Positions 270 to 47,443 of a stretch of DNA of 47,578 bases are shown here, piece by piece; position 1 is the stretch's first letter, and each line of letters starts with the position of its first letter. Origin of the DNA: a virus. A program made the translations under genes and the position numbers. The notes beneath the pieces were generated by a model. It worked only from the letters and a program-made list of their open reading frames with translations. It had not been told where the DNA came from and did not search any database. The stretch is taken from the IMG/VR virus record IMGVR_UViG_3300023179_000170, positions 1-47,578 of that record; one strand, 5' to 3'.

Positions 270-598
270 TATTTGTTGTCGCCGGCTGCTTTCAGCGATG
301 CCAAGAACGCGCCCAGCATGCGCAATGCCTGGGGCCGCTCGACCTCCGGCAGGCTCTCCCAAATGGACCAGATGGCGTCAGCATCGGCAGGGTTGCGCAT
401 GATGAGTGAAGCGGGGTCGGTCTGTAAGCATTCCGACGCGGCTTCAAGAAAATCCTGAGTATAGGGCCGCAGGCCGCGTTCTATCTTTGACAATTGACCT
501 TTGTGAATGTGCAATCTGTCGGCCAGTTGTTCGACAGTGTAGCCGCGATGCTTGCGCCATTCGCGCAAGAAGATGGGTCGTCGCTGTCGTTGCCTCAT
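269..598 (-). CDS. XRE-family phage repressor (CI-like)
   Basis: This is a 109-aa leftward protein from ATG 598; an in-frame ATG at 610 is an alternative start. Residues about 20-42 form a helix-turn-helix of the Cro/C1 (XRE) family (TVEQLADRLHIHKGQLSKIE), followed by a helical C-terminus. No LexA-type Ser/Lys peptidase domain is present, and the protein is much shorter than lambda CI, so induction would need another signal. It diverges from the Cro-like gene at 695 and is surrounded by four GTTGCC-N5-GGCAAC palindromes, one of them (589-605) over its own start codon. That suggests autoregulation. Its role as the lysogeny repressor is inferred from position, orientation and the operators. Confidence 0.8.
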   Translation of the reverse strand: MRQRQRRPIFLREWRKHRGYTVEQLADRLHIHKGQLSKIERGLRPYTQDFLEAASECLQTDPASLIMRNPADADAIWSIWESLPEVERPQALRMLGAFLASLKAAGDNK

Positions 599-605
599 TG
601 GCAAT
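589..605. promoter_or_regulatory. Repressor operator 3 (over the repressor start)
   Basis: Inverted repeat GTTGCC-TCATT-GGCAAT, one mismatch from the other three copies. It covers the repressor ATG at 598-596, so binding would block the repressor's own transcription or translation initiation. The mismatch suggests the weakest site, filled last. Confidence 0.65.
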
Positions 606-657
606 CCCATCCAGCGATGCGCGCCTGTTGTCAGGGGCCGACCCGGCAACAAAGCAG

Positions 658-7556: not shown

Positions 7557-7951
7557 TGCGCCATGTGATCTTCGCCCTCGCCCTCGCCGGCGGGCTCTGC
7601 TGCATCGCCGGCCTGCTCGCCGCCATCGGCGGCGGCGACTGGCTCGTCCCGCTCGCCTCCGGCCTCGCCCTCGAAGCCCTGGCCCTCGCCCTCGTCGCCC
7701 ACGCCGCCCGTGCGCCGGGGTTCCGAGAGTCGCCGGCGCAGCCATCCGCAACCATGACCCTGCCGGAGATCGAGTCCGTCATGGCGGAGAACGGCGGGTT
7801 TGCGGCAGACCTGCGTCGCCAAGCCGACGACGCCGAACGCCTCGCGCTGGAAAACCCGGACCAGGCCGACGCCATCCGCGCCGACGCCGCCCGGTTTCGC
7901 GCCATCGCCGACTCCGTCGATCCGCCCCCCGCCGCCGGGAGTGCGTCATGA
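7556..7951 (+). CDS. Membrane protein with soluble helical tail
   Basis: A 131-aa protein. ATG 7556 overlaps the previous stop (TGATG) with GGGAG seven bases upstream; a GTG one codon earlier is possible. Two hydrophobic segments (about residues 4-24 and 30-50) are followed by a charged helical domain (about 65-120, EIESVMAENGGFAADLRRQA). Family unknown. It belongs to the block of small membrane proteins between replication and packaging. Confidence 0.6.
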   Translation: MRHVIFALALAGGLCCIAGLLAAIGGGDWLVPLASGLALEALALALVAHAARAPGFRESPAQPSATMTLPEIESVMAENGGFAADLRRQADDAERLALENPDQADAIRADAARFRAIADSVDPPPAAGSAS

Positions 7952-10355: not shown

Positions 10356-10850
10356 ATGGCGGGCGGCAGGCCAACCATGTACTCGCTGGCGCTCCAGGAT
10401 GAGATCGTCGAGCGCATGTGCCGGGGTGAGACGGTAACGTCGATCTGCGAGTTGGAGCACATGCCAACGCTGGTCACGCTCTGGCGCTGGAACCGGGACA
10501 ATCCGGAGTTTTGTAAGGCCCTCACGCAAGCGCGCGCGGATCGGGCCCACGTCTGGGCCGAGCAGGGCATCGAGATCGCCGACGACGGATCGCGCGACAT
10601 CGTGATCGTGAAGGGCCGGAACGGCGAGGACGAGGAGCGCGTCAATCACGACCACATTCAGCGCTCGCGCCTTCGGGTGGAAACCCGCATGCGGCTGGCC
10701 GAGAAGCACAATCCGGCGGTGTACGGGCAGAAGGTCCAGCAGGAACTGACCGGCAAGGATGGCGGGCCAGTCGAAATGTCTGACGTCACAGAGCGCGAGA
10801 TTGCGCGCCGCATGGCCTTCGCGCTGATGAAAGGCGCTCCGGAGGGCTAG
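10356..10850 (+). CDS. terS: Terminase small subunit (Sf6-like)
   Basis: A 164-aa protein. The N-terminal half (residues 1-60: GGRPTMYSLALQDEIVERMC, then MPTLVTLWRWNRDNPEF) is the helix-turn-helix DNA-recognition region typical of Sf6-like small terminases. The following helices (KALTQARADRAHVWAEQG) match the family's oligomerisation core. It would recognise the packaging site and present DNA to the large subunit. It lies directly upstream of terL, with the TAG overlapping the GTG start of terL. Confidence 0.85.
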   Translation: MAGGRPTMYSLALQDEIVERMCRGETVTSICELEHMPTLVTLWRWNRDNPEFCKALTQARADRAHVWAEQGIEIADDGSRDIVIVKGRNGEDEERVNHDHIQRSRLRVETRMRLAEKHNPAVYGQKVQQELTGKDGGPVEMSDVTEREIARRMAFALMKGAPEG

Positions 10851-12475
10851 TGACCGCCCTTGACGATCTTCTCAAGCGATACAAGGCGTTGCCGCCGGAA
10901 GACCAGGAGCAGCTGAAGAAGGATGCGCTGGCCGCAACGGCGCGCATGCGCTGGGTGCCGAATCCAGGACCGCAGACCGACGCCTATTTCAGCAAGGCGG
11001 ACCTCCTCTACTATGGCGGGAGCGCCGGAGGCGGAAAGAGCCAGCTTCTGCTTGGCCTCGCGGTCAACGAGCACCGCGTCAGCCGGCTCTTCCGGCGCCA
11101 GTTCAAGGACATCGACGGCGAAGGCGGGCTCGTGCCGAGCCTCGCCACCATCCTCGGCTCTACCGCCGGCTATCGCGGCGACAAGCACGTCTGGACCATC
11201 CCCGGCAAGGAGCGGCGCACCATCGAGTTCGCGGCGTTTGAGACGCCCAAGGAAGCCGAGGCCTACCAAGGCCGCGCGGCCGATCTGTTTGGCTTTGATG
11301 AGGCGGTGCAGTTCCAGGAGGAGATTGTCCGCTTCATCACGGGCTGGAACCGCACCACCATTCCGGACCAGCGCTGCCGCGTCGTGCTGGCGTCGAATCC
11401 GCCGCTGACCCCGGAAGGGCTGTGGATCTTCGAATGGTTTGCGCCATGGCTCGACCCCAAGCACCCGCGACCGGCCAAGCCGGGCGAGTTGCGCTGGTTC
11501 ACCCAGATCAACGGCGTCGAGACGGAGGTCCAGGCGGACTATCAGAACGAAGTTGTCGACGCGCAGGGCAATGTGATGCTGGTGCGGCCCAAGTCGCGCA
11601 CCTTCATCCCTGCCAGCCTGAGCGACAATCCGGATCTGCTGGAAAGCGGGTACGCCTCCACGCTGGCGAACCTGCCAAAGCACATGCAGGACGCGCTGCT
11701 GGGCGGTCAGTTCAAGACGCACCTCGAAGATGCAGACCGACAGGTCATCCCGGCGGACTGGGTGCTGAAGGCGCAGGAGCGCTGGGCGCTGCGCAAGCGC
11801 GACCTGATCGAGAAGCCGATGACAGCAGTGGGCGCAGACGTCGCCGATGGCGGTCGCGACCGCATGGTGGTGACGCCACTGCACGGGACGACGTTCGGCG
11901 AGCCGCACATCGTTCCCGGCGCCGAGGTGAAGAGCACGCCCGACAAGGCCGCCGCGATCCTGAAGGTCGCCAAGGATGACCCGCAGATCAACATTGACTG
12001 CGGCGGCGGCTACGGCGGCGGCGTGTCCGACATGCTGGAGTCCAACCGCTTCAACGTGGTGCGCTGCAAGGGGGGGATGAGGTCGATCGCCACCGATCGG
12101 GACCGCACCCGCGGCTTCGCCAACAAGCGGGCCGAATGGATCTGGCGCTTCCGGGAGGCGCTGGACCCTGACCGGGGAGACGACATAGCGCTGCCGCCCG
12201 GGCGGGAGATCGTCGCCGAGCTGTGCGCCTTTCGCGAAAAGGCTCATGCCGACATGCGGCAGGTGATCGCCATCGAGGATAACGACGAGATCAGCAAGCG
12301 CCTTGGCCGCTCGCCGGACATCGCGTGGTCGCTGTTCTTCGCCTGGGCGGAGCCGCAGCCCGGCATCCGCGAACTGCGCGCCAGCAGCAACCCGCACCGG
12401 AGACGGCGCGCACATTCCCCGCCAGTTCACTCCGGCTACGCGACGGCAAAGGCGAAGTTCACCCGCCGCAGGTAG
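10850..12475 (+). CDS. terL: Terminase large subunit
   Basis: A 541-aa packaging motor starting at GTG 10850 (TAGTG overlap; GGAGGG upstream). The ATPase domain has Walker A GGSAGGGKS (56-64) and Walker B DLFGFDEA (Asp150, Glu151). The C-terminal RNase H-like nuclease has GADVADGGRDR (Asp330), INIDCGGGYGG (Asp383) and GRSPDIAWSL (Asp490), the three acidic residues expected. It cuts and pumps DNA into the prohead. The last ~45 residues are an Arg-rich flexible tail. Length is normal for the family. Confidence 0.93.
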   Translation: MTALDDLLKRYKALPPEDQEQLKKDALAATARMRWVPNPGPQTDAYFSKADLLYYGGSAGGGKSQLLLGLAVNEHRVSRLFRRQFKDIDGEGGLVPSLATILGSTAGYRGDKHVWTIPGKERRTIEFAAFETPKEAEAYQGRAADLFGFDEAVQFQEEIVRFITGWNRTTIPDQRCRVVLASNPPLTPEGLWIFEWFAPWLDPKHPRPAKPGELRWFTQINGVETEVQADYQNEVVDAQGNVMLVRPKSRTFIPASLSDNPDLLESGYASTLANLPKHMQDALLGGQFKTHLEDADRQVIPADWVLKAQERWALRKRDLIEKPMTAVGADVADGGRDRMVVTPLHGTTFGEPHIVPGAEVKSTPDKAAAILKVAKDDPQINIDCGGGYGGGVSDMLESNRFNVVRCKGGMRSIATDRDRTRGFANKRAEWIWRFREALDPDRGDDIALPPGREIVAELCAFREKAHADMRQVIAIEDNDEISKRLGRSPDIAWSLFFAWAEPQPGIRELRASSNPHRRRRAHSPPVHSGYATAKAKFTRRR

Positions 12476-32000: not shown

Positions 32001-35000
32001 ATGGTGGGCGACGCTCTCCAAGACGCCGGGGGTCAAGAAGGAAGAACTGGAGTGGACCGGCCTCAAGGACTGGCTGGATGGGCAGGAGGCGGAGCAGGCG
32101 CGCCCCGGCCGCAACAGTTCGGACAAGGGCGTCAGCCGCGACGACATTCTTGCTTTCGTCCGTGCCAACGGCGTGCGCGTCGAGGAGACGGTGCTGGGGG
32201 ATATGTCTCTCCAGAATCGCGAGCAATTGGATGAACTGCAACGCGAGCTATTGCCGCTCGTGGAGGAGCAAGATCGTCTTCGCGCTGAACTGGATACATT
32301 GGCAAATTTCGCCCGCAATGCCGACGATCAGAGGCTGAAGACGGCCGCCGCTGAAAGGCAACAACAAAATCGGGCGCGTTTGCGGGTAATTGGACCACAA
32401 ATTCTTGATCTGATGGAGCGCCAGGATTTCCTGCGTGGAGACAACGTCCGCACCAAATGGTCCAGCTACACCCTCCCCGGCGGCGAGAACTATCGCGAGC
32501 TGCTGCTGAGGTTGCCGGGTGGCACTCGCGACGATGTTCGCCCGTCGCCAGAAGTTGTGGCGAATTATCAGGAGGAGTGGGACGGGCTTGTCGTTCAAGT
32601 TCGCGAAGCCCGCGCAAAAGGGCAGCGCGCTTACGAAACGGAAGTCCAAGATAAAATGGATGAACTTCACGCTCGTATGGTGCGTGAAACTATTGAGCAG
32701 AACCCAAGGCTGGTTCGCGACCCCTACACCTCCTCCCACTGGGACGAGCCGAACGTCCTCGCGCACGTCCGTTTTAAGGAGCGCACCGACGCTGACGGCG
32801 CGCGCGTGCTGGCGATCGAGGAGGTCCAGAGCGACTGGCACCAGGCCGGGCGGGAGAAGGGGTATAAGGCCGGCGACGCGGAGCAGCGACTTCGCGATGC
32901 TGAAGAAGCGCAACGCGAAGCTTACAGGGCGATGGACGTCGCCAGTAACGCAGGGCGAAAGTATCTTGCGGAGGTTGGCGACATAGATTTTCAGGATCGG
33001 CAGGCTGCGGCTTCGCATGGGGCTGTGCTTGGCTGGCTCAGGCTTCGGAAGGGCGATGCTCAAGCAGCCGAGCTGGCGGCGCGGGTCTATGAAGCGATGG
33101 GCGCTGCGGATAGGGCCGCAGAGGAGACGCGCGGCGCGCGGGCGGCGGCCACCAAAGGCGTCCCCGACGCTCCGTTCAAGAACAACGCCTGGGCCGCGCT
33201 CGCGCTGAAGCGCATGGTTCGCTGGGCGGCCGAGAACGGTTTTGACAAGATCGCGTGGATTCCGGGGCAGGTGGCAGTGGAGCGGTTCGGAATCGAGAAG
33301 CAGATCGATAGCCTTGAACTGTGGAAGGATCGCGACGGCAGGGAAAAGCTCTACGCCTATCGCGGCGACCGCATGGTGCAAGAAATCACGATCACGGAGC
33401 AGCAGCCGCTGGAAGCGGTGATTGGCAAGGAACTGGCGGAGAAGTTGCGGAACGGACAGCGCAACACAACGGCCGACAGAGCTGAGGGGGGTGAGCATCG
33501 CTCGCTTTCCGGCGTTGACCTCAAGATCGGCGGCGACGGGATGCGCGCGTTCTACGACCGCATCCTGCCGAACATCGCCAACGACCTCGGGAAGAAGTAC
33601 GGGGCGAAGGTGGGGGAGGCGAAAATCGGCATGGGAGCGCCGAGCAAAGCCGACTTGGACGCACGATGGGCTCGCATCGCAGCGGGCGAAGATGGCGTGC
33701 CGCACCCCGGCGAAGCGCAACAAAAAATGCACTCCCTCCCCATCACGCCCGCGCTCAAGGAGGCCGCGCTGGGCGGCTTCCCAATGTTCCAGAACGACCC
33801 CTCCATTACGCCGGACCCGAAGCCCGACTGGTGGAAGAAGATGAAGCTGGACCGGCGCCAGATCGAGGAGACCTACGGGCCGGAGGTCGCGGCGAAGCTG
33901 GAGGGCATGTTCGCCACGGCGGAAGAGGAGGCTGCGACCGCCGCCGCAGAGATCGAGAAAGCCAACGCCGACCTGAAGCAGGCCAAGCGCCTCTGGGTCT
34001 GGATCAGGGAGAAGGGCGGGATTCGCGCCGATGACGCCGGGGCCATTGTGGATGGCGACAAGCGCTTTCCCATGCTGGTCCGCAAGAACGGGATGGGCCT
34101 CGACGACCTCGCCCGCGCCGCCGTGGAAGAGGGCTTTGCGCCGATGCGCAAGGACGCAGACGGCTACATCATCCCGCTTGATCCTGAAGAATTGCTGGAC
34201 ATGCTGCGCCGGGATGTCGGCGGCGATCCGCAGTATCGCGTCACGAACGACGAGGCCCGCGAAACTCTGGCGCGCTATCAGGCGTCCGGGATCGACACGA
34301 GCCTCACAGGCAAGGCGCTGCGTGAACAGGTTCGGGAGACGATGCTGGAACAGGCACGGCTTGGCGTCGATCCCGACGAGATCGCGCCGCTCTTGGGCTT
34401 CTCCTCCGGCGACGAGATGATCCAGGCGCTGGCGGCGCGGCGCCCGCGCGCCGACGTCATCAAGGAAGAGACCGACGCCGCGATGCGCGACGAGTTCGGC
34501 GACATGATGGAGGACGGCTCCCTCATGGACGAGGCCAAGCTGCGCGCACACGCCGTCGCACAGGAAAAGGCGCTGGAGATCGAACTGGAAGCCATCCGGC
34601 GCGCGACCGGCGGGCGGGCAAGGCCCATGGCCGCCGCGGCGAAGCAGGCGGCGGAGCGCCAGTTGAAGGCCATGACGGTGGGCCAGGTGCTGAACCCGGA
34701 CCAGTTCCTTGCCGCCGAACGCCGCTTCGGGATGCAGGCGCAGAAGGCGCTGGCGCGGGGCGACACGGCTGCGGCGCTGGAGGCCAAGCACCGCCAGCTT
34801 GTGTCGTGGCATCTCTATCGCGGCGCCCGCGCCGCCGCCGACAAGGTGCAGAAAGCGGTCAAGCGCTGGTCGTCGCTGTCGGACAGCACGACGGTGCGCA
34901 ACGGCATCGCAGAGCCGGAGCGCGACATGATCGACATGATCCTCGAGCGGATCGACCTGAAGCCGCGCTCGCGGGCCGAAGAACGCCGCAGTGCGGCGGA

Positions 35001-37341
35001 ATGGTTCATGTCCGTCGAGGCGCGCGGACTCTCGGGGATGCGGGGCGTCGATCCCGAAACGCTGGCGCAGATCGGGCCGCGGCCGATGCGCTCGCTGACG
35101 GTTGCGGAGTTCGATGAGGTCGCGGAAGTGATCCGCAACATCGCGTTCCTTGGGCGCAATGTGGGGAAGATGCTGGCCGCGGAGCGCGCGCGCGAGGTCG
35201 AAGAGGTCAAGCGGGGCCTGCTGGATCGCGCTGAAGCGGAATGGAAGGGCGCGCTCGATCCGAAGTCCCGACCGTCGGATTCGCTGCTGGCGCGGGCGCG
35301 GCGCAACGTCGATGCGTTCCACGGCGCCAACCTCAAGATCGACTATCTCATGCGCCTGATGGACGGGCTGAAGGACAATGGCCCTTGGGCGCGGATCTTC
35401 TCGCATCCGGCGCAGGAGGCCGCCGACCGTTTGCATCAGCGCCAGATTGCAACCATGCAGCAGTTCGCCGCGCTTCTGGAGCGCCAAGGCGTCACCCGCA
35501 AGGAACTCGGGCAGATGCTGACGCGCAACATCTGGATTCCCGAAATTGGGGAAAACCTGACGCGCCACCAGATCGTCTCCGTCGCGCTCAACATGGGCAA
35601 TGAGTACAACCGCGAGGGCGTCAAGGCGGGCGAGGGCTGGGACGATGCGCAGCTTGCGGCTGTGCTCGCGAAGATGCGCAAGCAGGACTGGGATCTTGTG
35701 CAGGCGCTGTGGGACCATATCGGCCAGTGGAAGGAGGAATCCTTCGCGCTGGATGAAAAGACCCGCGGCGTGCGCCCGCGGGAGGTCATCGCTGCACCGG
35801 TGCAGACGCCGTTCGGGACCTATCGCGGCGGGTACTGGCCGGTCGCGTTCGATCCGCTGCGCTCCGATGCGGCCGCGAAGCGCGAGGCGCGGGACGCGGT
35901 CAATGCGGAGCTCGGCGGCGGCTATCGTACACCCGCCACCGCGCGGGGTCGCCTCGAGGCGCGGCAGGGCACCGGCGGCCAACCGTTCCGGCTTGACTGG
36001 CTCGGTGTGCTGGACAAGCACACCCGCGAGACGCTGACCGACCTGACGCACCGCGAACTGGTCATCGACCTGCGTCGCCTCAAGGCCGACAGCCGCATCC
36101 GGCTTGCGATCTCCAACGTGGCCGGCGATGGCGCGGTGCGCGCGCTGGACGACTGGGTCAACCGCCTGACGCGCAAGGCGCCGGTGACGGCCTATGGCGA
36201 TCTCGGCGGCATTGCCGCCTATCTGCGCCGCACGGGCACGCAGTCGCAAATGGGCTTTAAGCTGTCGGTGGGTCTGCTCAACGCGCTGGGCGCGCTGCAG
36301 GCGATTCCGCGCAATGGGTTCGCGGCGCAGTTGAAGCAGTCTGGCATCTCGTTCGGCCGCGACTTCCCGCTGATGGTGGCGTCTCAGATCGGATCGCTGT
36401 TCGGCGGCGACGGGACGATGCCCAAGCGCGTCGCCTTCGTGCGCGAGAAGTCCGCCATGATGAATGCGCGGATGGGGCAGTTTGACCGGGAAATCGCCAA
36501 CGACACTGGCGTCCTGGAGGTCAAGGCGACGGTGCTTGGCCGGCGCGATTACTCGCTCATGTCCAAGGACTGGGAGGATGCGGCGCACTATTTCACCGGG
36601 CTCATGGACGCCGCGGTCTCCGTGCCGACATGGCTTGCGGCCTATGAAAATGCCATGGCCGGGAAGGTCGGCGGCATCGAACTGGCTGATGAGGCGGCGG
36701 CGATCCGGCACGCCGATCAGGTGGTGCGCACAACGCAGGGCTCCGGCGCCACGCAGGACCTGTCGGCGTTGCTCGCGACGAATAACGAGTTCCAGCGCCT
36801 CTTCACCATGTTCATGAGCTGGGCGAACGGGTTCTACAACCAGTTGTTCGCGGAACAATTTCCCGGCGTGATGCGCGGCAAGATCAGTCCCGTGCGGTTT
36901 GCGGTCAACATGATCGCGATCTGGCTGCTGCCGGCGTTCCTGTCGGCGTGGTTCTATGGGCTGGGCGACGATGGTGAGGACGAGGACAAGAAGGCGCGGC
37001 AGATCGTGACGGAAGTGCTGCTCTATCCGGCGCAGTCGATCCCGTTCGTGCGCGACGCCCTGTCCTCGGTGTTCGAAGACTACCGCCCGCAGACGCCGCT
37101 GGCGACCGCGCTGGATCGCGCCGGGCGCCTCTCGGGCGCAGTTGAGGGCGGCGACGGCGAGAAGATCGCCAAGCAAAGCTACATGCTGTTCGGCTCGCTC
37201 TTTGGCGCGCCGACGCAGTTCTGGGTCACCGGGGACTATCTCTATGACGTGACGGTGGGCGACGAGGATCTGCAGGACTGGACCGACCCGGAAACCGCGG
37301 GCGACGCCTTCAGCCAGGCGTTCGTGAGAGACACGCGTTAG
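29032..37341 (+). CDS. Giant polyvalent protein: ADP-ribosyltransferase-like, zincins and C-terminal membrane region
   Basis: A 2769-aa protein, translationally coupled to the ejection gene (TGATG). It resembles the large polyvalent proteins that phages deliver with their DNA. In order: residues about 127-385, an ART-PolyVal-like domain (YHGTPS at 129; SGGVYVTEDPEYAFEFGD near 173; FDPRNIRSIHAAFDPDFKD at 360); a zincin HETGH (429-433) with a downstream ELFARTFEAYLMEG; a FAGPRARTA/DTGWFKD module (about 676-728); a second zincin HELQH (844-848); WTGLKDWL; a conserved EEVQSDWH block (1264-1270); long helical regions; NMGNEYNREG (about 2187) and GGYWPV; and a membrane segment (about 2624-2645). 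It probably blocks host defences and processes proteins on entry. Domain names are from motif recognition only. Confidence 0.75.
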   Translation: MHPECRARVSKVLGREVTDDMDAALTQRIEASMRTLSRQDVAAWRALPQTEKWRRAADHAAAQVEAAAVGQTFNQDGAVSRAQAAGYQGADTGEAVEWLRAKAKGLDMSTEARMARAREQGWDTSKPQYHGTPSRSSEHNNKYVRAEGDDRYIPLFEAFDSTKGAASDSGWLGSGGVYVTEDPEYAFEFGDRILPLFIRTSKPFDVLDSNTTSYESLFLLRKQVQELGMQLPEKWRLDLTEPPAKKTFKSYDGRQITTHYTVREAPNSEDPNTRWAVVSGSRPYAESRSGIVEASGPTREQAIGLFNDNQRSGGKPFGFSSRLIGDYGPKRFVEDLKARGFDSVRAVDSQNGRVSETLVFDPRNIRSIHAAFDPDFKDSANLLAQGEPAVGVRGDFTIWRADARWRVNELERQTRIRLYAARDMSTMLHETGHLFLEVMRTLAPSSPQIAAQLEDVRQWAGLKDGEDFEERHHELFARTFEAYLMEGKSPSLRLRKAFEAFKAWLTAIYRAVTGRLVTRDGIDYGATRLSPEIRAVFDRMVATDAEIAQARALQGMEPLTQAQLGLTDEAYAKYLASFERARVAAENDLRAETIRQVMRKKRAEWKRREAQHRRVVTLNVNGRREYRAEDLFTDGRWRDGVGVGQALPPDEAMQDRDEAEAAGAQAEREIIDGRSYDQFAGPRARTADLSKLKQAQDRVAAGEDPEQVRKDTGWFKDSAGQWQFEISTADVRVRLTPEAAAAANASRRLNAMEVRHALMVGDMDAFMDPLSPLAQHYALLPDVLDAKDLIEAYPDLASLRVVFVNMPAGFNGAALPEDYQTGRPGFILLDSHLSIEKARSTLIHELQHVIQASEEWMVGGMPEQASAYIDLADQDTVDAVLLRLKAAGLPATSNNVYRVFTGEDQAFESEARRNMTPEELQATPPVNAYAPSLPTRPNSRAGLEDFKDRVLKRFGIVLSVGPSLSREPLWFSALERAVEGSQTKKASAAQWWATLSKTPGVKKEELEWTGLKDWLDGQEAEQARPGRNSSDKGVSRDDILAFVRANGVRVEETVLGDMSLQNREQLDELQRELLPLVEEQDRLRAELDTLANFARNADDQRLKTAAAERQQQNRARLRVIGPQILDLMERQDFLRGDNVRTKWSSYTLPGGENYRELLLRLPGGTRDDVRPSPEVVANYQEEWDGLVVQVREARAKGQRAYETEVQDKMDELHARMVRETIEQNPRLVRDPYTSSHWDEPNVLAHVRFKERTDADGARVLAIEEVQSDWHQAGREKGYKAGDAEQRLRDAEEAQREAYRAMDVASNAGRKYLAEVGDIDFQDRQAAASHGAVLGWLRLRKGDAQAAELAARVYEAMGAADRAAEETRGARAAATKGVPDAPFKNNAWAALALKRMVRWAAENGFDKIAWIPGQVAVERFGIEKQIDSLELWKDRDGREKLYAYRGDRMVQEITITEQQPLEAVIGKELAEKLRNGQRNTTADRAEGGEHRSLSGVDLKIGGDGMRAFYDRILPNIANDLGKKYGAKVGEAKIGMGAPSKADLDARWARIAAGEDGVPHPGEAQQKMHSLPITPALKEAALGGFPMFQNDPSITPDPKPDWWKKMKLDRRQIEETYGPEVAAKLEGMFATAEEEAATAAAEIEKANADLKQAKRLWVWIREKGGIRADDAGAIVDGDKRFPMLVRKNGMGLDDLARAAVEEGFAPMRKDADGYIIPLDPEELLDMLRRDVGGDPQYRVTNDEARETLARYQASGIDTSLTGKALREQVRETMLEQARLGVDPDEIAPLLGFSSGDEMIQALAARRPRADVIKEETDAAMRDEFGDMMEDGSLMDEAKLRAHAVAQEKALEIELEAIRRATGGRARPMAAAAKQAAERQLKAMTVGQVLNPDQFLAAERRFGMQAQKALARGDTAAALEAKHRQLVSWHLYRGARAAADKVQKAVKRWSSLSDSTTVRNGIAEPERDMIDMILERIDLKPRSRAEERRSAAEWFMSVEARGLSGMRGVDPETLAQIGPRPMRSLTVAEFDEVAEVIRNIAFLGRNVGKMLAAERAREVEEVKRGLLDRAEAEWKGALDPKSRPSDSLLARARRNVDAFHGANLKIDYLMRLMDGLKDNGPWARIFSHPAQEAADRLHQRQIATMQQFAALLERQGVTRKELGQMLTRNIWIPEIGENLTRHQIVSVALNMGNEYNREGVKAGEGWDDAQLAAVLAKMRKQDWDLVQALWDHIGQWKEESFALDEKTRGVRPREVIAAPVQTPFGTYRGGYWPVAFDPLRSDAAAKREARDAVNAELGGGYRTPATARGRLEARQGTGGQPFRLDWLGVLDKHTRETLTDLTHRELVIDLRRLKADSRIRLAISNVAGDGAVRALDDWVNRLTRKAPVTAYGDLGGIAAYLRRTGTQSQMGFKLSVGLLNALGALQAIPRNGFAAQLKQSGISFGRDFPLMVASQIGSLFGGDGTMPKRVAFVREKSAMMNARMGQFDREIANDTGVLEVKATVLGRRDYSLMSKDWEDAAHYFTGLMDAAVSVPTWLAAYENAMAGKVGGIELADEAAAIRHADQVVRTTQGSGATQDLSALLATNNEFQRLFTMFMSWANGFYNQLFAEQFPGVMRGKISPVRFAVNMIAIWLLPAFLSAWFYGLGDDGEDEDKKARQIVTEVLLYPAQSIPFVRDALSSVFEDYRPQTPLATALDRAGRLSGAVEGGDGEKIAKQSYMLFGSLFGAPTQFWVTGDYLYDVTVGDEDLQDWTDPETAGDAFSQAFVRDTR
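29430..30100. other. AT-richer segment encoding the ADP-ribosyltransferase-like domain
   Basis: Base composition drops visibly here (for example 26 G/C in the 60 bases 29641-29700, against roughly two thirds elsewhere). Codons with A or T at the third position become common. The edges match the ART-like domain, so the domain was probably exchanged or acquired as a unit. Confidence 0.65.
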
Positions 37342-40403: not shown

Positions 40404-41069
40404 ATGGACACGAATTCTCTTCGCGAGGCGGCGGCTACCCTTCGCACCCATACCCGTGATCGCATTGGCGACATCATGGGGCGCGTGCGCTGGCTGGCGA
40501 TGGAGGTGCAGAAGGTTGCGCTTGAAATCGAGGGCACGACGCAAGAGGAAGAAGACCTGCGCGAAGTCGCCGCTGCCATGCTGCGCTACTCCTCGCGGTA
40601 TGACGCACGGGCGCCGGAGCCGCCGCCGGTGGGGGCGCTTGTCGAGCCGCACTCGCCCAAGATTCCGGAAGCGCCTGCCATCCCGGAGCCTGTCAGCGTT
40701 TATGACGCGGACACGGCGACGCGAACGCTTGAGGCGCCTTCGGAGCCCCGCGAGTTCCTGTGGCTTCGGCCGGACCTCTGGAACACGCTGGCGGAAGCGC
40801 AGGCCGCGTTGCGCGGACACATCCAGCAGGAGCACGCCGCGCGGACGCAGACGCGGGCCATTGCGCTTGAGGCGGTGGTTGACCTGGCGCTCCTGGACAA
40901 GCGCACAGAGGCGCAGGAAATCGAACTGTCGCAACACAGCCTGCTGAAGGACCGCCTTCGCAATGTGGATGCGGTGCGGGCCGACAAGCTGGCGGAAGTG
41001 GCCGCGCTCACCTCTCTGGAAAGCGCGCGCGCCTATGCCGGCACGGTGCCCGTCGGGTGGGAGACATGA
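40404..41069 (+). CDS. Hypothetical protein after the tail fibre, possible fibre-assembly role
   Basis: A 221-aa protein. ATG 40404 is favoured for GGAGA five bases upstream. Two helical parts (residues 1-70 and about 115-221) flank a Pro-rich linker (PEPPPVGALVEPHSPKIPEA). The C-terminal half, ending ESARAYAGTVPVGW, resembles the short domains seen beside tail fibre genes (DUF4376-like). This hints at a fibre chaperone or accessory role. No peptidoglycan hydrolase motif is visible. It overlaps the spanin gene by ATGA. Confidence 0.45.
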   Translation: MDTNSLREAAATLRTHTRDRIGDIMGRVRWLAMEVQKVALEIEGTTQEEEDLREVAAAMLRYSSRYDARAPEPPPVGALVEPHSPKIPEAPAIPEPVSVYDADTATRTLEAPSEPREFLWLRPDLWNTLAEAQAALRGHIQQEHAARTQTRAIALEAVVDLALLDKRTEAQEIELSQHSLLKDRLRNVDAVRADKLAEVAALTSLESARAYAGTVPVGWET

Positions 41070-41944
41070 GCTTCGACGAATGGCATGACAGCGACGAACA
41101 CGCCCGCGCTGCGGCGCAGGAGGATGCGTGGTTTGAGCGTAACCGCGTCGAAATCAGCCTCGGCACGCTGCTGTTCCTGACGTGGTGGTTCATGCCGCGC
41201 CTCGTGGCGCTCGTCTGCCTTGGGCTTCTTGTTGCGTTCGCAGTGCTGCGCCGCGTTCCGCAGGCGCTGCCGACGCTGCGCTTCATCTGGCGCGTCTGCC
41301 TGATGCCGCTGGCGAAGATCGACGACTGGATCATGGCGCGCTGGCGGGCGTTCAAGATCGTGCTCGGCAAGCGCATGGTCGCCATGCAGGCGGACTGGCA
41401 GGTGCTGCAAGAATGGCTGCGGCTGGCGCTGAAGCGGGAAAAGGACGACCGCGTCGTCTCCGCCATGGCCTACCATCAAGGCTTTGTGTCGGGCCGCGTG
41501 CTGTCGCCGCTCAATGTGCTCGGGCGCTGGATTCCGGCCATTGCCTTCGGGATCGGCATGCTGCTTGCGGGATCGGTGCAGTCCTGGCGCATCCACAACA
41601 TCAAGGAAAAGCTGAGCGAGGCGACGGAGAGTGCGCAAAGCTGGCAGGCTGAAGCGAAGCAGGCGCGTGCGGATGCGGCGGCGATTGCCATCCAGCGGAA
41701 CGCCGACGTGAACGCGGCCAACGCACGGGCGCTGGAGACGGCGGAACTTCTTAGGGCTGAGCGGGAGAGGGTCGAACAACTCTCTACGCGGGAAAGGAGA
41801 CGTAGGAATGAAGCTCAACGCGCTGCTGCTGGCGGGCCCCCTCCTGATTTTGAACGGAGCCTGCGCGACATTGCCAATCCCCAAGCGGGCGCCGCCCCCG
41901 GCGCCGATGCCGCCCCCGCGGCCGGCGGTGATCGTCCCGGCTGA
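41066..41944 (+). CDS. Rz: Rz-like i-spanin with an extended N-terminus
   Basis: A 292-aa protein. Residues about 33-61 and 152-173 are hydrophobic membrane segments. About 178-245 form a long charged coiled coil (KEKLSEATESAQSWQAEAKQ), the part that in i-spanins crosses the periplasm. The C-terminus is Pro/Ala-rich. Typical Rz proteins are about 150 aa with one membrane segment, so ~150 residues with an extra membrane region are added here. The o-spanin gene starts inside this gene in another frame, the classic Rz/Rz1 arrangement. Confidence 0.7.
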   Translation: MSFDEWHDSDEHARAAAQEDAWFERNRVEISLGTLLFLTWWFMPRLVALVCLGLLVAFAVLRRVPQALPTLRFIWRVCLMPLAKIDDWIMARWRAFKIVLGKRMVAMQADWQVLQEWLRLALKREKDDRVVSAMAYHQGFVSGRVLSPLNVLGRWIPAIAFGIGMLLAGSVQSWRIHNIKEKLSEATESAQSWQAEAKQARADAAAIAIQRNADVNAANARALETAELLRAERERVEQLSTRERRRRNEAQRAAAGGPPPDFERSLRDIANPQAGAAPGADAAPAAGGDRPG

Positions 41945-42188
41945 ATGCACGGTGCCGCCGGCGCCGCGGACGCCGTTCCAGCCGCCGGACTTGCCGACGC
42001 TTGCAGCGCTCGATTCCAAGAACCCGCTGCCGCACTGGATCAGCCGCACGTCGCGCGCTGAAACCCTGGCGACGGCGCTGCTGGGCGAAGTAGACCGCAT
42101 CCTGACCGAGGACCGCACGCGCGACGCGCTGGCGGAAAGCTGCGCGCGCTGGGCCGACAGGGTCGCGCGCGAGCAGGCGGGCCAATGA
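41808..42188 (+). CDS. Rz1: Rz1-like o-spanin lipoprotein
   Basis: A 126-aa protein starting inside the i-spanin gene in another frame (overlap 41808-41944), with AAAGGAG eight bases upstream. A lipoprotein signal (MKLNALLLAGPLLILNGAC) ends at Cys19; the -3 residue is Asn rather than the usual Leu. A strongly Pro-rich stretch follows (KRAPPPAPMPPPRPA), as in Rz1. It would sit in the outer membrane and fuse membranes with the i-spanin at lysis. It is longer than most Rz1 proteins because of a C-terminal helical domain. Confidence 0.75.
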   Translation: MKLNALLLAGPLLILNGACATLPIPKRAPPPAPMPPPRPAVIVPAECTVPPAPRTPFQPPDLPTLAALDSKNPLPHWISRTSRAETLATALLGEVDRILTEDRTRDALAESCARWADRVAREQAGQ

Positions 42189-42619
42189 CAGACTCTCTGC
42201 CCGGCAATCAAGGGGAGTGGTGGCGCGACCGCGTCTGGGACCTGCAGGCGCGGGTATCCTCTCATGAAGCCCGCATCGAAGCGCTTCACGGTGCGGACAA
42301 GGAACATCGCGACGACATTCACGACTTGCGCCGCGAGATGACGCTGTTGCGCCAGGAGATGGCGAAAGGGTTCGCCGACCTGAGCGTCAAGATGGATCTT
42401 CATCTGGGGTCCATGCGGGCGGAAATCTCGGAACTCAGGAACCTCCCGCCGCTCACGCCGCCGATCCAGACGCAGACGCTGCCCCAGATTCCGATCCGCT
42501 GGATCGTGATCGGCGGCCTTGCGCTGGTCGGCGCCATCGCGTCGGCGTCGTTTGCGCTGGGGGTCATGTCCGATCCGAAGGAGGCGTTTCACGCCGCCAC
42601 AAGCGCGCTGACGCAGTAA
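42185..42619 (+). CDS. XhlA-like holin or lysis membrane protein
   Basis: A 144-aa protein with a coiled coil (residues about 17-80, SSHEARIEALHGADKEHRDD, EMTLLRQEMAKGF) and a single C-terminal transmembrane helix (about 105-127, WIVIGGLALVGAIASASFAL). This is the layout of the haemolysin XhlA family, which works with holins in cell lysis. It lies directly after the spanin pair, with an ATGA overlap. A pinholin-like or accessory role is equally possible. Confidence 0.6.
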   Translation: MTDSLPGNQGEWWRDRVWDLQARVSSHEARIEALHGADKEHRDDIHDLRREMTLLRQEMAKGFADLSVKMDLHLGSMRAEISELRNLPPLTPPIQTQTLPQIPIRWIVIGGLALVGAIASASFALGVMSDPKEAFHAATSALTQ

Positions 42620-42635
42620 GACACAAGGGCTGGAT

Positions 42636-43676
42636 ATGAGTGAGAAGAAGCCGAACCTGTGGTGGCGCTGGATCGCTGACTACTGGAGCGATCCGCGCAA
42701 GGTCTTCGAGGCGCAGCGTGTCGAGGACATGTGGCGCAAGTTCTTCAAGCTGTGCTGGATTCTGGGCTCGGTCTACATCCTGTTCTGGGTGGCGGGGCCG
42801 ACCAACGTCAAGGCGCTCCAGCTCTGGATGGAGGACGATGCACTCGCGGCGGCGACCGCCTGGGCGATGACGTGGATGTCGTTCCTCGCCTTCTCGATCG
42901 TGCGCTATGCGTCGGCGGGTCTCGCGCCGATCACGTTCTATATCCCGCTCATCCCGCGCAAATGGCACGCCGAACCGCTGAGCCTGCCGTCGCTGTCGGT
43001 GCTGATGGGCTCGGTCCTGGTGCTTGCGCTGCTCTATGTGCAGTTCACCAACGCCTTCAACATGTACGCGCACGAGGCGCTGAAGTCGGGCGGCGCGGCT
43101 ACGACGCAGCTTTCGGCAGCGTCCTCGGAAGTGGCCGATCTGGAAGCCGCGCTGCGCCAGGTGAACGAGGGCGAGCGGGCGACGCTGGCGCGGATCGACG
43201 CCGACCTCTCCCGCGTCGCGCCGGAAAAGACGCTGACGATCCGCACGCTCGGCGCGCAGCGGCAAGACGCCGTGGACAAGGCCGCGGCGGAGCGCCGGCG
43301 CATCCAGGCGGAACTGAAGGAGGCTCGCCGAACGAACGTCGCGACCACGCAGACCGTCTCCGATCCGCGGCCGGTGGACGGCTATTACGCCGCCGCGCTC
43401 GGCATTGAGCGCACGCTGATGTCGGCGCTGAACGATGCGCAGCGATCGGCGCTGGTGGAGCTGTTGCTGGTCATGGGTCTCGGCCTTGGCCTTGTGGCGG
43501 CGACCTCGAAGCTTGGCGTGCGCGAAGCCGCGGAACTGAAGGCGACGACGGAGCCGGAGGCTGCGCCTGAGGAGAAGGCGCCGGAAGATAAGGCTAGCAA
43601 TGTGACGCCGTTCCCAGGCCGCAAGAAGTTCCTGCTGCCGGCGGGCGTCGGCGACTATGTTGAGGAGGCCGCGTGA
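42636..43676 (+). CDS. Multi-spanning membrane protein with coiled coil, coupled to the phage Hsp70
   Basis: A 346-aa protein with four likely membrane segments: about residues 38-54 (LCWILGSVYILFWVAG), 70-93, 116-140 (LSVLMGSVLVLALLYVQFTN) and 270-288 (LLLVMGLGLGLVAATS). Between the third and fourth is a charged coiled coil (about 155-235). The tail contains SNVTPFPGRKKF. The stop overlaps the start of the Hsp70 gene (TGATG), so the two are made together. The leftward protein at 46294-47001 has the same layout and a similar SNVT tail. Function unknown. Confidence 0.6.
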   Translation: MSEKKPNLWWRWIADYWSDPRKVFEAQRVEDMWRKFFKLCWILGSVYILFWVAGPTNVKALQLWMEDDALAAATAWAMTWMSFLAFSIVRYASAGLAPITFYIPLIPRKWHAEPLSLPSLSVLMGSVLVLALLYVQFTNAFNMYAHEALKSGGAATTQLSAASSEVADLEAALRQVNEGERATLARIDADLSRVAPEKTLTIRTLGAQRQDAVDKAAAERRRIQAELKEARRTNVATTQTVSDPRPVDGYYAAALGIERTLMSALNDAQRSALVELLLVMGLGLGLVAATSKLGVREAAELKATTEPEAAPEEKAPEDKASNVTPFPGRKKFLLPAGVGDYVEEAA

Positions 43677-45529
43677 TGGCTAAGGCAATCGGGCTGGACC
43701 TTGGCACGACAACGTCAAGCGCGTCCTACTTCGACGGACGCTCCGCGCGCATCCTTGCCGCCGACGAGCGCGACCGCGCGCTGCGGACGGTGGTGACGTT
43801 CGACTCCTCGGGTCAGATCCGCGTCGGGCGCTTCGCGCACAACACGTCGGCGACGCATGCGGAGTTCTCGTTCCGCTCGCTGAAGCGGCTGCTTGGGCGT
43901 CAGTATAACGATCCGCTCGTGCAGGAGATCGCCGAGCACGTCAGCTATGACCTCTCCATGGGGCCGAACGGCGAAGCGTGGGTGCGCACGCCGACCGGGC
44001 AGGCGTCGCCGGAAGAGCTGCTGAGCCATGTGGTCCGCAAGCTGAAGCAGACCGCGGAGACCGCGCTGGGTGAGAAGGTCAGTTTCGCCGTCGTTGGCGT
44101 GCCGGCGAATTTCAACGAGATCCAGAAGGAGGCGGTGCGCAAGGCCTGCGGCATGGCGGGCCTTGAGGTGCGCAAACTCCTGCGGGAACCCACGGCGGCG
44201 GCCATCGCCTATGGGATCGAACGGGGCCTTGGCAAGACCATCGCGGTCTATGACCTCGGCGGCGGCACGTTCGACTGCACGATCCTGAAGGTGACGGAGC
44301 GGCGCTATCGCGCCATCGGCACTGCGGGCGACACATTCCTGGGTGGCGACGACTTCGATGCGGCGCTGGCCGATCACATCGCGGAACGGTTCCGCGCCAA
44401 GCATGACTTCGATCCGCGCAGCCAGGCGCTCGCGCTGGACCGGCTGCTGGTCAATGCGGAGATCGCCAAGGTCGCGCTGTCAGGCGAGGCGCAGTACCGC
44501 GTGTTCGATCCGCGGTTCGGCATCGACCCGAAAAGCCACGCCTTCGCGGACCTCGATGAGACCGTGACGCGGCCGGAGTTCGAGGATCTGGTCGAACACC
44601 TGATCGACCGCACGCGCCCGCCCTGCGAGGCGGCGATGCGCATGGCGAAGGTGACGGCGCGCCAGATCGACGATGTGGTTCTGGTCGGCGGCATGACGAA
44701 GATGCCGCGCGTGCGCGAGGTGGTGGAGGAGATTTTCGGCCGCACACCGACGGGCGAGAAGATCAATCCGCTGGAAGCGGTCACCATGGGCTGCGCCGTC
44801 ATGGCCGCGGCGATTGCGGGCGAGACCAAGGCCATCGCGCTGGACGATATCACCGGGCAGTCGTTCGGCGTCGAAGCGTCGGGCGGCGCGTTCGTGCCGG
44901 TCATCAAGGCCGGGACGCGCGTGCCCTATTCGCGCACGGTGCGCACCGGGCCGGCGGCGGACGGCGCCACCTGGGCGCGGGTGCGCGTCTATCAGGGCGA
45001 CGCCCGCGTCGCGCGCGACAACCCGCTGCTCGGCGAGATCGTCCACAAGGAGATCACGCCGAAGCGGAAGGGCGAGGCGGACATCGACTTGACCTTCGAT
45101 CTCGATGAAGACGCGATCCTCACCGTCACGATGCTCGATGTCGAAAGCGGCGTCGCGGTGTCGAACCGCATTCATGCCGAGACCGGCCTGAGCGCCGAAG
45201 CGATCGACGATCTGGGCGGCCTGTCGGAAGACGATGAGGTCGGGCCGGAGGAAGAGCCGGACGACGCCGAGCCGGTGCGCGGCGGCGTTTCCGATCAGGG
45301 CCATGCAGAAAATCCGCCCGCCAATGACGATTTTGTCCCAACAGATTGGGACACGGCGTCTGAAGAGACGCAACCCGCTGTTCCGCAGGCCGCAGAAGCG
45401 GACCCAGCCCCCGACTTGGCGGCTGTCGCGGATTCGGGCGCGGCGGGGGATTTCGATCCCTCGCCGCTGCCGGACGAGGATGACGCGCCGCCGATGCCGG
45501 GGCGCCCGATCTATGAGGCGGCGGAATGA
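43676..45529 (+). CDS. dnaK: Phage-encoded Hsp70/DnaK chaperone
   Basis: A 617-aa protein from ATG 43676 (AGGAGG seven bases upstream; TGATG overlap). The ATPase domain carries the Hsp70 signatures: GLDLGTTTSS (6-15), VYDLGGGTFDCTI (191-203) and VLVGGMTKMPRVREVV (338-339 Gly-Gly), plus EPTAAAIAYG. A linker and a beta substrate-binding region follow (about 385-500: SFGVEASGGAFVPVIKAG). The helical lid is absent; instead the last ~110 residues are an acidic, Pro-rich disordered tail (SEDDEVGPEEEPDDAEP). No DnaJ or GrpE gene is present, so host partners would be needed. Roles could include virion assembly, folding the giant proteins, or lysis control; none is proven. Confidence 0.93.
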   Translation: MAKAIGLDLGTTTSSASYFDGRSARILAADERDRALRTVVTFDSSGQIRVGRFAHNTSATHAEFSFRSLKRLLGRQYNDPLVQEIAEHVSYDLSMGPNGEAWVRTPTGQASPEELLSHVVRKLKQTAETALGEKVSFAVVGVPANFNEIQKEAVRKACGMAGLEVRKLLREPTAAAIAYGIERGLGKTIAVYDLGGGTFDCTILKVTERRYRAIGTAGDTFLGGDDFDAALADHIAERFRAKHDFDPRSQALALDRLLVNAEIAKVALSGEAQYRVFDPRFGIDPKSHAFADLDETVTRPEFEDLVEHLIDRTRPPCEAAMRMAKVTARQIDDVVLVGGMTKMPRVREVVEEIFGRTPTGEKINPLEAVTMGCAVMAAAIAGETKAIALDDITGQSFGVEASGGAFVPVIKAGTRVPYSRTVRTGPAADGATWARVRVYQGDARVARDNPLLGEIVHKEITPKRKGEADIDLTFDLDEDAILTVTMLDVESGVAVSNRIHAETGLSAEAIDDLGGLSEDDEVGPEEEPDDAEPVRGGVSDQGHAENPPANDDFVPTDWDTASEETQPAVPQAAEADPAPDLAAVADSGAAGDFDPSPLPDEDDAPPMPGRPIYEAAE

Positions 45530-45747
45530 TTGGCCTGCAGCTTAACCCGCCGATCTTCTGCGTAACACCCAAGGGCGACGGCATGGCGCGGATCGTCTTC
45601 GACTACGGGCCCGACATGAACCCGGTGTTCCTGGTGGAGCTGAACGAGAGCAGGGAGTGGCTATGCTTCGACATGATCGACATGCGGGGATCGGCGAATG
45701 CGATGTGGAATCTCGATCATCCCGAGCCGCCAGAGAGCCGGGCGTGA
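45526..45747 (+). CDS. Conserved-looking small phage protein
   Basis: A 73-aa protein (LNPPIFCVTPKGDGMARIVF, then DYGPDMNPVFLVELNESREW, later RGSANAMWNLDHP). This LNPPI-x-x-TPKG-x-G-x-A...DYG pattern is common in small proteins near the lysis genes of many phages; their role is unknown. The start overlaps the Hsp70 stop (ATGA) and the stop overlaps the next GTG. Confidence 0.65.
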   Translation: MIGLQLNPPIFCVTPKGDGMARIVFDYGPDMNPVFLVELNESREWLCFDMIDMRGSANAMWNLDHPEPPESRA

Positions 45748-46262: not shown

Positions 46263-46290
46263 AAGCCCCCGACCGCAAGGCCGGGGGCTT
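46263..46290. terminator. Bidirectional intrinsic terminator
   Basis: AAGCCCCCG (46263-46271) pairs with CGGGGGCTT (46282-46290); the inner loop can close further as CC-GCAA-GG, a GNRA tetraloop. T-rich sequence follows on the + strand (46289-46294), and an A-run (46256-46261) gives a T-run on the - strand. It separates the convergent late operon and the leftward membrane gene. Confidence 0.9.
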
Positions 46291-46293
46291 TTC

Positions 46294-47001
46294 TCATTTC
46301 TTGGCCCAGCGCTTGCGGACCAGTTCACGTCCCGCGTTGAACTCGGTGACGTTTGAGGGCGCCTCGGAAGCGGCTTCTTTCCGCGCGTGCCTCATGCCGA
46401 TTGCCCAGAACCCGAAGAACTCCAGGCACTCGATCAGTGCAACGATGGCCCACTGAAGGGGGCTGGGCATCTGTGGCGCCGGACGAGCCGGCGTTGCAAT
46501 CGCTTCGACCCTGGCTTGCGCCGCGGCCCGCAGCGGTTCGAGACGAGCGAGTTCCGTCGTCCGCGCCGCCTGCAGCGTCGCCAGCCGCATGGCCGGAATG
46601 TCCGACCGCAGCGGCGGCACCGCATTGATCTCCGCCTCTACCTTTGCAAGCGCGGCGACTGCGGCTGCCTTGGCCGCCATCGCCTGCTCATAGGGCGCAG
46701 ACCGCTGCGCCTCGTTTGTCGCAATCGCCTGCTTGCCGCTCCAGCCCGTGAAGAGCAGACAGGCGACGCCAAGGCCGATCAGCCCGAGGCGCCGGCTCCC
46801 GGCGATGGCGGCGGCGTTGGCTGCCGCTCGCGCGGCGAACACCTGACATCCGACCGTCATCGCCACGGTGATGGGAACCATGATCCCCGCCGCGTTCTGG
46901 GTCCAACCCCAGATCCCGGCCGCCGCCCACGCGGCGATCACCACCCACAAAGCCGCGGCGCTGAGCCAGTTTCCCCGCGGCATGTTTTCGACCAGCTTCA
47001 T
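46294..47001 (-). CDS. Multi-spanning membrane protein with coiled coil (possible lysogenic conversion gene)
   Basis: A 235-aa leftward protein. ATG 47001 is chosen because GGAG lies upstream at a good distance. Hydrophobic segments at about 13-31 (SAAALWVVIAAWAAAGIWG), 37-60 and 70-88 are followed by an Ala/Glu/Leu-rich coiled coil (about 100-175), then a fourth segment (about 186-206, WAIVALIECLEFFGFWAIGM) and a basic tail with SNVTEFNAGRELVRKRWAKK. It is transcribed against all late genes from its own promoter. That position is typical of morons such as superinfection exclusion genes; this is inference. The layout parallels the protein at 42636-43676. Confidence 0.7.
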   Translation of the reverse strand: MKLVENMPRGNWLSAAALWVVIAAWAAAGIWGWTQNAAGIMVPITVAMTVGCQVFAARAAANAAAIAGSRRLGLIGLGVACLLFTGWSGKQAIATNEAQRSAPYEQAMAAKAAAVAALAKVEAEINAVPPLRSDIPAMRLATLQAARTTELARLEPLRAAAQARVEAIATPARPAPQMPSPLQWAIVALIECLEFFGFWAIGMRHARKEAASEAPSNVTEFNAGRELVRKRWAKK

Positions 47002-47043
47002 GTTCTGTCTCCAACCAGCGCCGGCTGGCGCTGTGCAGTACGT

Positions 47044-47072
47044 ATATAATACGCCCTGCCGACCGGCGTCAA
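47044..47072 (-). promoter_or_regulatory. Promoter of the leftward membrane gene
   Basis: On the - strand, TTGACG (47072-47067) is followed after 17 bases by TTATAT (47049-47044), or after 15 bases by TATTAT (47051-47046). The gene starts at 47001. The -10 lies inside the TACGTATATAA repeat. Confidence 0.55.
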
Positions 47073-47131
47073 CGTCAGTACGTGTGCAATGACGGATTCG
47101 GGTACGTATCTGGATTAACGAATTGAACGCC

Positions 47132-47161
47132 TTGCGCCCCAAGGGCTCATACGTATATAAC
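47132..47161 (+). promoter_or_regulatory. Promoter of the ribbon-helix-helix gene
   Basis: TTGCGC (47132-47137), 18 bases, then TATAAC (47156-47161), inside the second TACGTATATAA repeat and 30 bases before the ATG at 47192. Confidence 0.5.
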
Positions 47162-47191
47162 ACGTACTGCCAACGGCTGGAGATTAACCAC

Positions 47192-47443
47192 ATGACGAAA
47201 AAGAAATCCGGCGCCAGCAAGGAAACCGCGCGCCAGCGCGCCTATCACCAGCGCGTTGTGGACGAGGGCGGCAAGCGCGTGGTGCTGTTGCTCAAGAAGG
47301 ACGAGGCGGAAGCCCTGGCCGAGGCGGCGGCGCTGCATGGCGGACAGAAGGAAGTGCTGCTGAAGGGCATGGAGGCGCTGCGATCGCGCGCCAACGACCT
47401 CACCCAGGATCAGGTCATCGACTGGATCAAGCGGAACACGTAG
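47192..47443 (+). CDS. Ribbon-helix-helix (Arc/CopG-like) regulator
   Basis: An 83-aa protein. ATG 47192 has GGAG eleven bases upstream. A basic N-terminus (MTKKKSGASKETARQRAYHQ) leads to a beta-strand (KRVVLLLKKDE) and two helices (AEALAEAAALHGG, QKEVLLKGMEALRSR), the Arc/MetJ/CopG fold order. A C-terminal helix (LTQDQVIDWIKRN) may aid dimerisation. It diverges from the membrane gene, and TACGTATATAA and CAGTACGT repeats lie between the two; it probably represses both promoters. An antitoxin role is an alternative, but no partner toxin is recognised. Confidence 0.7.
   Translation: MTKKKSGASKETARQRAYHQRVVDEGGKRVVLLLKKDEAEALAEAAALHGGQKEVLLKGMEALRSRANDLTQDQVIDWIKRNT

Follow-up and report, generated by a model that had tools for sequence, protein, structure and literature searches.

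A Lidless, Divergent Hsp70 Encoded in the Lysis Region of a Small Podovirus

Introduction

To our knowledge, all bacterial Hsp70s that have been studied well require both J-proteins and a lid. Lid-deleted DnaK still binds peptide, with reduced affinity and 10–100 times faster exchange, according to the account of Buczynski 2001 given in PMC7083937. Ssz1, which forms the yeast ribosome-associated complex with Zuo1, has no lid, carries a detached linker, does not hydrolyze ATP and serves one dedicated partner (PMC7083937). The closterovirus protein Hsp70h, a "misbehaving chaperone", is built into the virion tail (PMC3622897). Among bacterial viruses, full-length dnaK genes have been published in large phages, some of them copies from recent host transfer (PMC12619734), and the J-protein Rki of phage RB43 works through host DnaK and stabilizes sigma-32 (PMC3486835).

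Here we describe an Hsp70 encoded in the IMG/VR record IMGVR_UViG_3300023179_000170, a viral DNA of 47,578 bases that was analyzed as a whole and is referred to as the window. Over about 510 residues of nucleotide-binding domain (NBD) and β-type substrate-binding domain (β-SBD), this protein resembles alphaproteobacterial DnaK and contains complete ATP motifs. Unlike DnaK, it has neither an α-helical lid nor the canonical C-terminus, its J-docking, linker and cleft residues are changed, it falls below the NCBIfam DnaK cutoffs, and its gene has no dnaJ or grpE neighbor. With Ssz1 it shares an NBD and β-SBD without lid and a noncanonical linker, but Ssz1 is eukaryotic, ribosomal and nonhydrolyzing, the partner of the phage protein is a candidate, and the common trait comes without sign of common descent. 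The full-length DnaK proteins of Lak phages, huge phages, moraphages and IMG/VR contigs (PHROG_22485) are likewise phage-encoded, yet in them the lid and every J-docking residue are retained, and most known cases occur in jumbo phages or other lineages. Hsp70h is also a viral Hsp70 with a nonstandard assembly or scaffold role (PMC3622897), such as we propose here from sequence, but it is a plant RNA virus protein and a known virion component, and it matches structurally at 15–25% identity. Rki is comparable as a case of phage interference with the Hsp70 system (PMC3486835); it recruits host DnaK as a J-protein, whereas the present phage encodes no J-protein but an Hsp70 with a face that would probably repel the J-domain helix. 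What is unusual is a lidless, divergent form of Hsp70 in a 47-kb podovirus. The interest lies in the structured loss, in which the switch is kept and the cochaperone and client parts are changed, and not in the mere presence of an Hsp70 in a phage.

Results and Discussion

The record has no end repeats and represents a small tailed phage, a podovirus of the BPP-1/BcepC6B-like kind. In addition to the genes in Table 1, it encodes a T7/epsilon15-type portal, a BcepC6B-like tail protein, very large internal proteins, Sak4, a Cas4-type exonuclease and a primase/helicase. The divergent C1/Cro-type HTH pair at the left end reads as an immunity region and makes a temperate lifestyle probable; none of the genes scanned was found to encode an integrase. 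The very large late proteins are encoded at 24446–29032 and 29032–37341. The first, of 1528 aa, contains a transglycosylase domain, and no endolysin gene is recognizable in the lysis cassette. The second, of 2769 aa, carries an LPD23 large-polyvalent-protein domain, matches phrog_9880 over its last 1000 residues and looks like an ejected internal protein. None of 48 TerL-related records, many of which are fragments, contains an Hsp70. This count rules out Hsp70 as a group trait of the related podoviruses and marks it as an accessory gene of this lineage.

Table 1. Features of the window discussed in the text
Feature	Coordinates	Strand	Basis
C1-type HTH repressor	272..652	-	Pfam HTH_31/HTH_3 E 1e-11, PHROG regulators
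HTH gene divergent from the C1-type repressor	695-955	+	PHROG regulators
Terminase large subunit, BPP-1/Acidovorax AP1 type	10850..12475	+	phrog_979; tblastn 38-41%
Rz-like inner-membrane spanin with extra N-terminal TM region	41057..41944	+	phrog_739 E 0.0018 (weak), TM segments
Rz1-like outer-membrane lipoprotein spanin, overlapping the Rz end	41808..42188	+	read from sequence
144-aa protein, coiled coil and C-terminal TM, possibly holin-type	42185..42619	+	hydropathy, inference
346-aa membrane protein coupled upstream of Hsp70, candidate partner	42636..43676	+	hydropathy, AF2
Lidless divergent Hsp70, 617 aa	43676..45529	+	Pfam HSP70, AF2 model, alignments
Hsp70 domains: NBD about residues 1-383, linker 384-396, β-SBD about 397-507, then acidic disordered tail			
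Acidic, disordered C-terminal tail replacing the α-helical lid	45215..45526	+	pLDDT, composition, no lid relic
73-aa ORF that overlaps the stop of Hsp70, without relative	45526..45747	+	family searches
Terminator-like hairpin closing the late operon	46263..46290	.	best score on minus strand
Second membrane protein, same architecture (3 TM, coiled coil, TM4, tail)	46297..47220	-	hydropathy

The Hsp70 gene comes after those for the tailspike, the spanin pair and a small TM protein. It belongs to an unbroken series of genes, overlapping or set close together, at the end of which stands a terminator-like hairpin (11 such hairpins were found in the window, versus 4.5 expected in shuffled sequences). 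An earlier note on this DNA had located the gene in the lysis region and described it as coupled to a membrane protein. Both statements are borne out, the former by the Rz-like/Rz1-like pair upstream and the latter by a TGATG overlap: the ATG of Hsp70 shares bases with the TGA of the preceding membrane-protein gene, which is consistent with translational coupling. The ORF is real and without interruption, with an in-frame GTG at 43673 as an alternative start. The Rz-like spanin bears its additional TM region on an N-terminal extension of ~150 residues; the Rz1-like protein starts with a signal/lipobox-like sequence (LLILNGAC) and has a proline-rich body.

The Pfam score, an actin-type NBD with phosphate-1, phosphate-2 and adenosine motifs, and the β-SBD place the protein in the Hsp70 superfamily. 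Pfam HSP70 (PF00012) matches residues 5–515 with an E-value of 4.9e-134 and 448 bits (cutoff 20.6). Searches of PDB chains with phmmer returned E-values of about 1e-109 for mitochondrial Hsp70 and 1e-105 for DnaK, and the alignment to DnaK stops near DnaK residue 515, where SBDα starts. The phage Hsp70 profile PHROG_22485 (E 5.8e-129) is matched over positions 1–509 of 634, the lid part being without match. An AlphaFold2 model, computed from an alignment that included 19 lid-bearing Hsp70s, is confident for the NBD (pLDDT about 88) and moderately so for the β-SBD (about 70), with low values at residues 387–416, which form the linker and the first strands. The best Foldseek matches are DnaK. 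The full ATPase domain and β substrate-binding region described earlier are therefore confirmed, in a lidless form that is so far known from one sequence.

The replacement of the lid by ~110 acidic, predicted disordered residues also agrees with the earlier description. Residues 501–617 reach a pLDDT of about 30 with one short helix (507–513), and from residue 511 onward the tail contains 32 D/E, 3 R/H and no K. The model has the Ssz1-type combination of NBD and β-SBD without a lid, and the SBDα lid expected of a DnaK equivalog is missing. When alphaproteobacterial and E. coli lid sequences were used as tblastn queries, the best E-value across the whole window was 0.27, and no frame of the stretch after the β-SBD gave a match. 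Since no lid sequence occurs in any frame near the gene, we can rule out that the tail is a frameshifted or relic lid. We found no description of a lidless phage Hsp70 in the open literature searched.

That Hsp70s are rare in phages, as had been stated, is too strong. At least 563 viral-contig stretches code for Hsp70 relatives, though some of these contigs could belong to hosts, and complete dnaK genes of large phages are in print (PMC12619734). Several INPHARED "phage" records with dnaK or hscA resemble bacterial contigs, and one "Acinetobacter phage" record contains a host-like iscR-iscS-iscU-iscA-hscB-hscA-fdx run. Several public "phage" records with a complete dnaK have the appearance of host contigs and were left out as phage evidence; phage Hsp70 counts drawn from such collections call for care. 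Single-protein scans of viral and genome collections returned no close relative of our protein and one partial match at 30%. On the human-gut phage contig MT835719, positions 5980–7668 code for another Hsp70-like protein, 562 aa long and divergent, whose helical C-terminus is shortened; it is about 30% identical to our protein.

Identity is highest to alphaproteobacterial DnaK (40–42%), with 36–39% to gamma- and betaproteobacterial proteins and most phage copies. The NCBIfam cutoffs are missed both for DnaK (464 vs 648, 441 vs 823, 381 vs 1019 and 377 vs 1002 bits) and for HscA (372 vs 709 and 369 vs 620 bits), and no isc genes were found among the neighbors. The Hsp70 branch has a length of 7.1 in a tree under C20; in a second tree it measures 2.4 against a median of 0.14 (~15 times). 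Neither tree gives it a supported placement. AU tests reject placement neither with the alphaproteobacteria (p = 0.42) nor with the gamma/beta group (p = 0.17). An alphaproteobacterial source, favored by identity, appears most likely. The codon usage is like that of the virion genes (r = 0.973). The gene is an old capture or has diverged fast, and is not a recent host gene. Recent capture of a host dnaK with a breakpoint, which the earlier note had named as evidence that would count against its reading, is ruled out by the best identity of 42%, the long branch and the phage-like codon usage. An assembly chimera is unlikely: the gene overlaps both neighbors and has a composition in common with them.

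Residue conservation was scored against 97 Hsp70s. The ATP-binding and catalytic residues D8, T11, T12, K70, P143, E171, D194, T199 and D201 are all retained, and the ATP site as a whole keeps 21 of its 23 consensus residues, the exceptions being R345K and D368L. A broken ATPase site, the other outcome that had been considered damaging, is therefore not what the sequence suggests. Binding of ATP is well supported by these residues; since K70, E171, T199 and D201 are kept, hydrolysis is feasible and likely.

The interfaces are retained far less well. At clamp, linker and J-docking positions, the roles of which were taken from PMC6843406, PMC8215388 and PMC7289447, the protein carries Y145N, D148E, R151K, K155R, R167K, N170R, E217R, V218A, D326M, Q378M, L390A, L392D, P396G, K414A and N415G, and the arch and pocket of the cleft carry T403A, F426T, T428P and V436A. 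The linker reads IALDD instead of the conserved VLLLD; together with R151K, R167K, D326M and K414A, this sets the protein apart from the linker and relay of a DnaK equivalog. Near-invariant positions are retained at 21/23 in the ATP site, 5/15 in the interface, 2/7 in the cleft and 78/132 in the remainder, so that 71 of 177 are lost overall. The difference between ATP site and interface (Fisher test, p = 3e-4) is indicative, as the interface and cleft lists combine literature with our own picks made after viewing the alignment.

A comparison with 114 distinct Hsp70s from viral contigs provides a cleaner test. R151, R167, N170, E217, V218, Q378, L392 and V436 are present in every one of these proteins and changed here; Y145, equally without exception among them, is N. 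The hairpin that receives helix II of the J-domain has a net charge of +3, compared to −2 to −6 in all 114. The lid is present in 113, and the single exception runs off the contig end. Even the Lak-phage Hsp70, which is more divergent (30% identity to our protein), keeps R151, R167, N170 and V436, and no Hsp70 from viral contigs carries the N170R motif REPTAAAxAYG. As read from the sequence, then, invariant positions have changed in three places: the face that docks J-proteins, the linker and relay between the domains, and the peptide cleft. This main point was absent from the earlier note.

J-domains are basic on their helix-II side, so a basic docking hairpin is expected to repel host J-proteins. 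Exchange of L390/L392 in the linker to A/D abolishes DnaK function in cells and weakens DnaJ binding (PMC6843406). Other coupling and docking residues are still in place (L391, D393, P419, D477, D481, P143 and K70, with the charge preserved in R167K), which would allow a partial J response or allostery. A canonical cycle of J-triggered hydrolysis, linker docking and lid closure is nevertheless unlikely. Consistent with the earlier note, neither a J-domain (PF00226) nor a GrpE gene (PF01025) was found in the whole record.

These changes bear on the proposal, made in the earlier note, that the protein assists folding of the very large virion proteins. It would do so as a lidless, fast-exchange Hsp70 that uses host DnaJ and GrpE to fold chains of 1,500–2,800 aa. 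The two very large late proteins and the intact ATP site fit this idea, as does the behavior of lid-deleted DnaK, which still binds peptide although both its on and its off rate are raised (Buczynski 2001, as cited in PMC7083937). The inverted charge of the docking hairpin, the changes at R151, R167, N170, E217, V218 and Q378, the linker substitution L392D and the pocket substitutions V436A and F426T all point the other way, and related podoviruses with a similar head and tail region do without an Hsp70 (0/48 records). We consider a working folding chaperone unlikely. Since the J-docking face, relay/linker and cleft are altered, general refolding with host DnaJ is unlikely, and since these positions hardly vary among other Hsp70s, even in phage proteins that have diverged further, the virion-folding role is unsupported. 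Of the earlier interpretation, the description is borne out and this role is not; action at the membrane, the other role that had been suggested, may apply and would fit the gene pairing. The protein has probably turned into something besides a general folding machine.

Could the gene simply be decaying cargo, a captured dnaK that drifts out of function and lost its lid first? The very long branch, the single occurrence and the 71 lost near-invariant residues would be compatible with this scenario. The intact 617-aa ORF and the phage-like codon usage argue against decay, as do a coding pattern like that of virion genes, the overlap of start and stop with the adjacent genes, and an ATP site that is kept far better than the other invariant positions. 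We judge this explanation very improbable.

The coupled 346-aa protein comprises three TM segments, a long coiled-coil hairpin, a fourth TM segment and a cytosolic tail ending in ...SNVTPFPGRKKFLLPAGVGDYVEEAA (tail end, RKKFLLPAGVGDYVEEAA; tail peptide, RKKFLLPAGVGDY). Single-sequence AF2 predicts the hairpin with a pLDDT of 93–96 and the remainder with low values, and database searches returned no family or tblastn match. By a crude Hsp70-site score, RKKFLLPAG ranks top in the tail; since 209 of 5000 shuffles equal this score, the site is a suggestion. The second membrane protein, convergent with the late operon, is encoded by an ORF that extends to 47220 with a plausible ATG near 47000. Its tail motif SNVTEFNAGR is similar to SNVTPFPGRKK of the 346-aa protein, a likeness reached by 642 of 20000 shuffles. 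BLAST finds no link between the two, and neither has a database relative; the second is possibly a distant paralogue of the first. The existence of a protein of the same architecture without an adjoining Hsp70 weakens the case for an exclusive Hsp70 pairing.

From this evidence we tentatively favor, at somewhat less than an even chance, a neofunctionalized, ATP-binding, J-independent scaffold of the Ssz1 type that is probably partnered by the coupled membrane protein, a pairing suggested by gene order and the shuffle-equalled tail motif. A dnaK gene, most likely alphaproteobacterial, would have been taken up by a temperate podovirus in the distant past and then have acquired a new function. 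Its product would bind and perhaps slowly hydrolyze ATP without host DnaJ or GrpE and would not run a canonical grip-and-release cycle. As a nucleotide-dependent scaffold, it may hold one dedicated partner through the degenerate β-SBD or the NBD, in the way that Zuo1 is held by the lidless Ssz1. For this partner, the coupled 4-TM coiled-coil protein is the best candidate, as its cytosolic tail ends in a basic-then-hydrophobic sequence (RKKFLLPAG) of the kind bound by Hsp70s. Working at the inner membrane, either late or in the lysogen, the pair might for instance control lysis or exclude superinfecting phages. This role is proposed solely from the position of the gene, which lies where the lysis segment ends, beside the immunity region. 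In its boldest form, which we think unlikely to hold, the protein would be the first J-independent, nucleotide-switched membrane scaffold among phage Hsp70s and a prokaryotic Ssz1 analogue, with the acidic tail or the membrane partner replacing lid and J-domain and the inverted, basic docking face serving an acidic ligand of its own.

Two further roles were weighed. As a decoy or inhibitor of host Hsp70, the protein could bind DnaK substrates, sigma-32 or a chaperone-sensing defense component without processing them, and so alter the heat-shock response or block a defense. Phage takeover and counter-defense genes are usually early; this gene lies in the late operon, its altered cleft makes shared substrates less likely, and PADLOC reports no match in its neighborhood. 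The decoy role is quite unlikely on these grounds, even though an ATP site without J response could be dominant-negative, Rki sets a precedent by stabilizing sigma-32 through host DnaK (PMC3486835), and the bNACHT25 defense needs DnaJ, phage chaperones having been proposed as counter-defense (PMC12619734). The precedent of Hsp70h (PMC3622897) raises the alternative that the protein takes part in the structure or assembly of the virion. A viral-structure search retrieves the closteroviral protein, and the gene belongs to the late operon, where it comes after the tail genes. This likeness reflects the generic Hsp70 fold, however, and the gene stands beyond the spanins, outside the head and tail genes; we give a virion role very little credence.

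Conclusions

The proposed nucleotide-dependent scaffold with a membrane partner can be approached experimentally, as a soluble protein of 617 aa is directly open to standard DnaK assays. If the proposal is true, a bacterial-virus Hsp70 of natural origin that keeps its ATPase and loses J-dependence and lid would separate, within a single protein, the ATP-switch role from the client-gripping cycle. It would also provide a bacterial parallel to eukaryotic Ssz1 and closteroviral Hsp70h.
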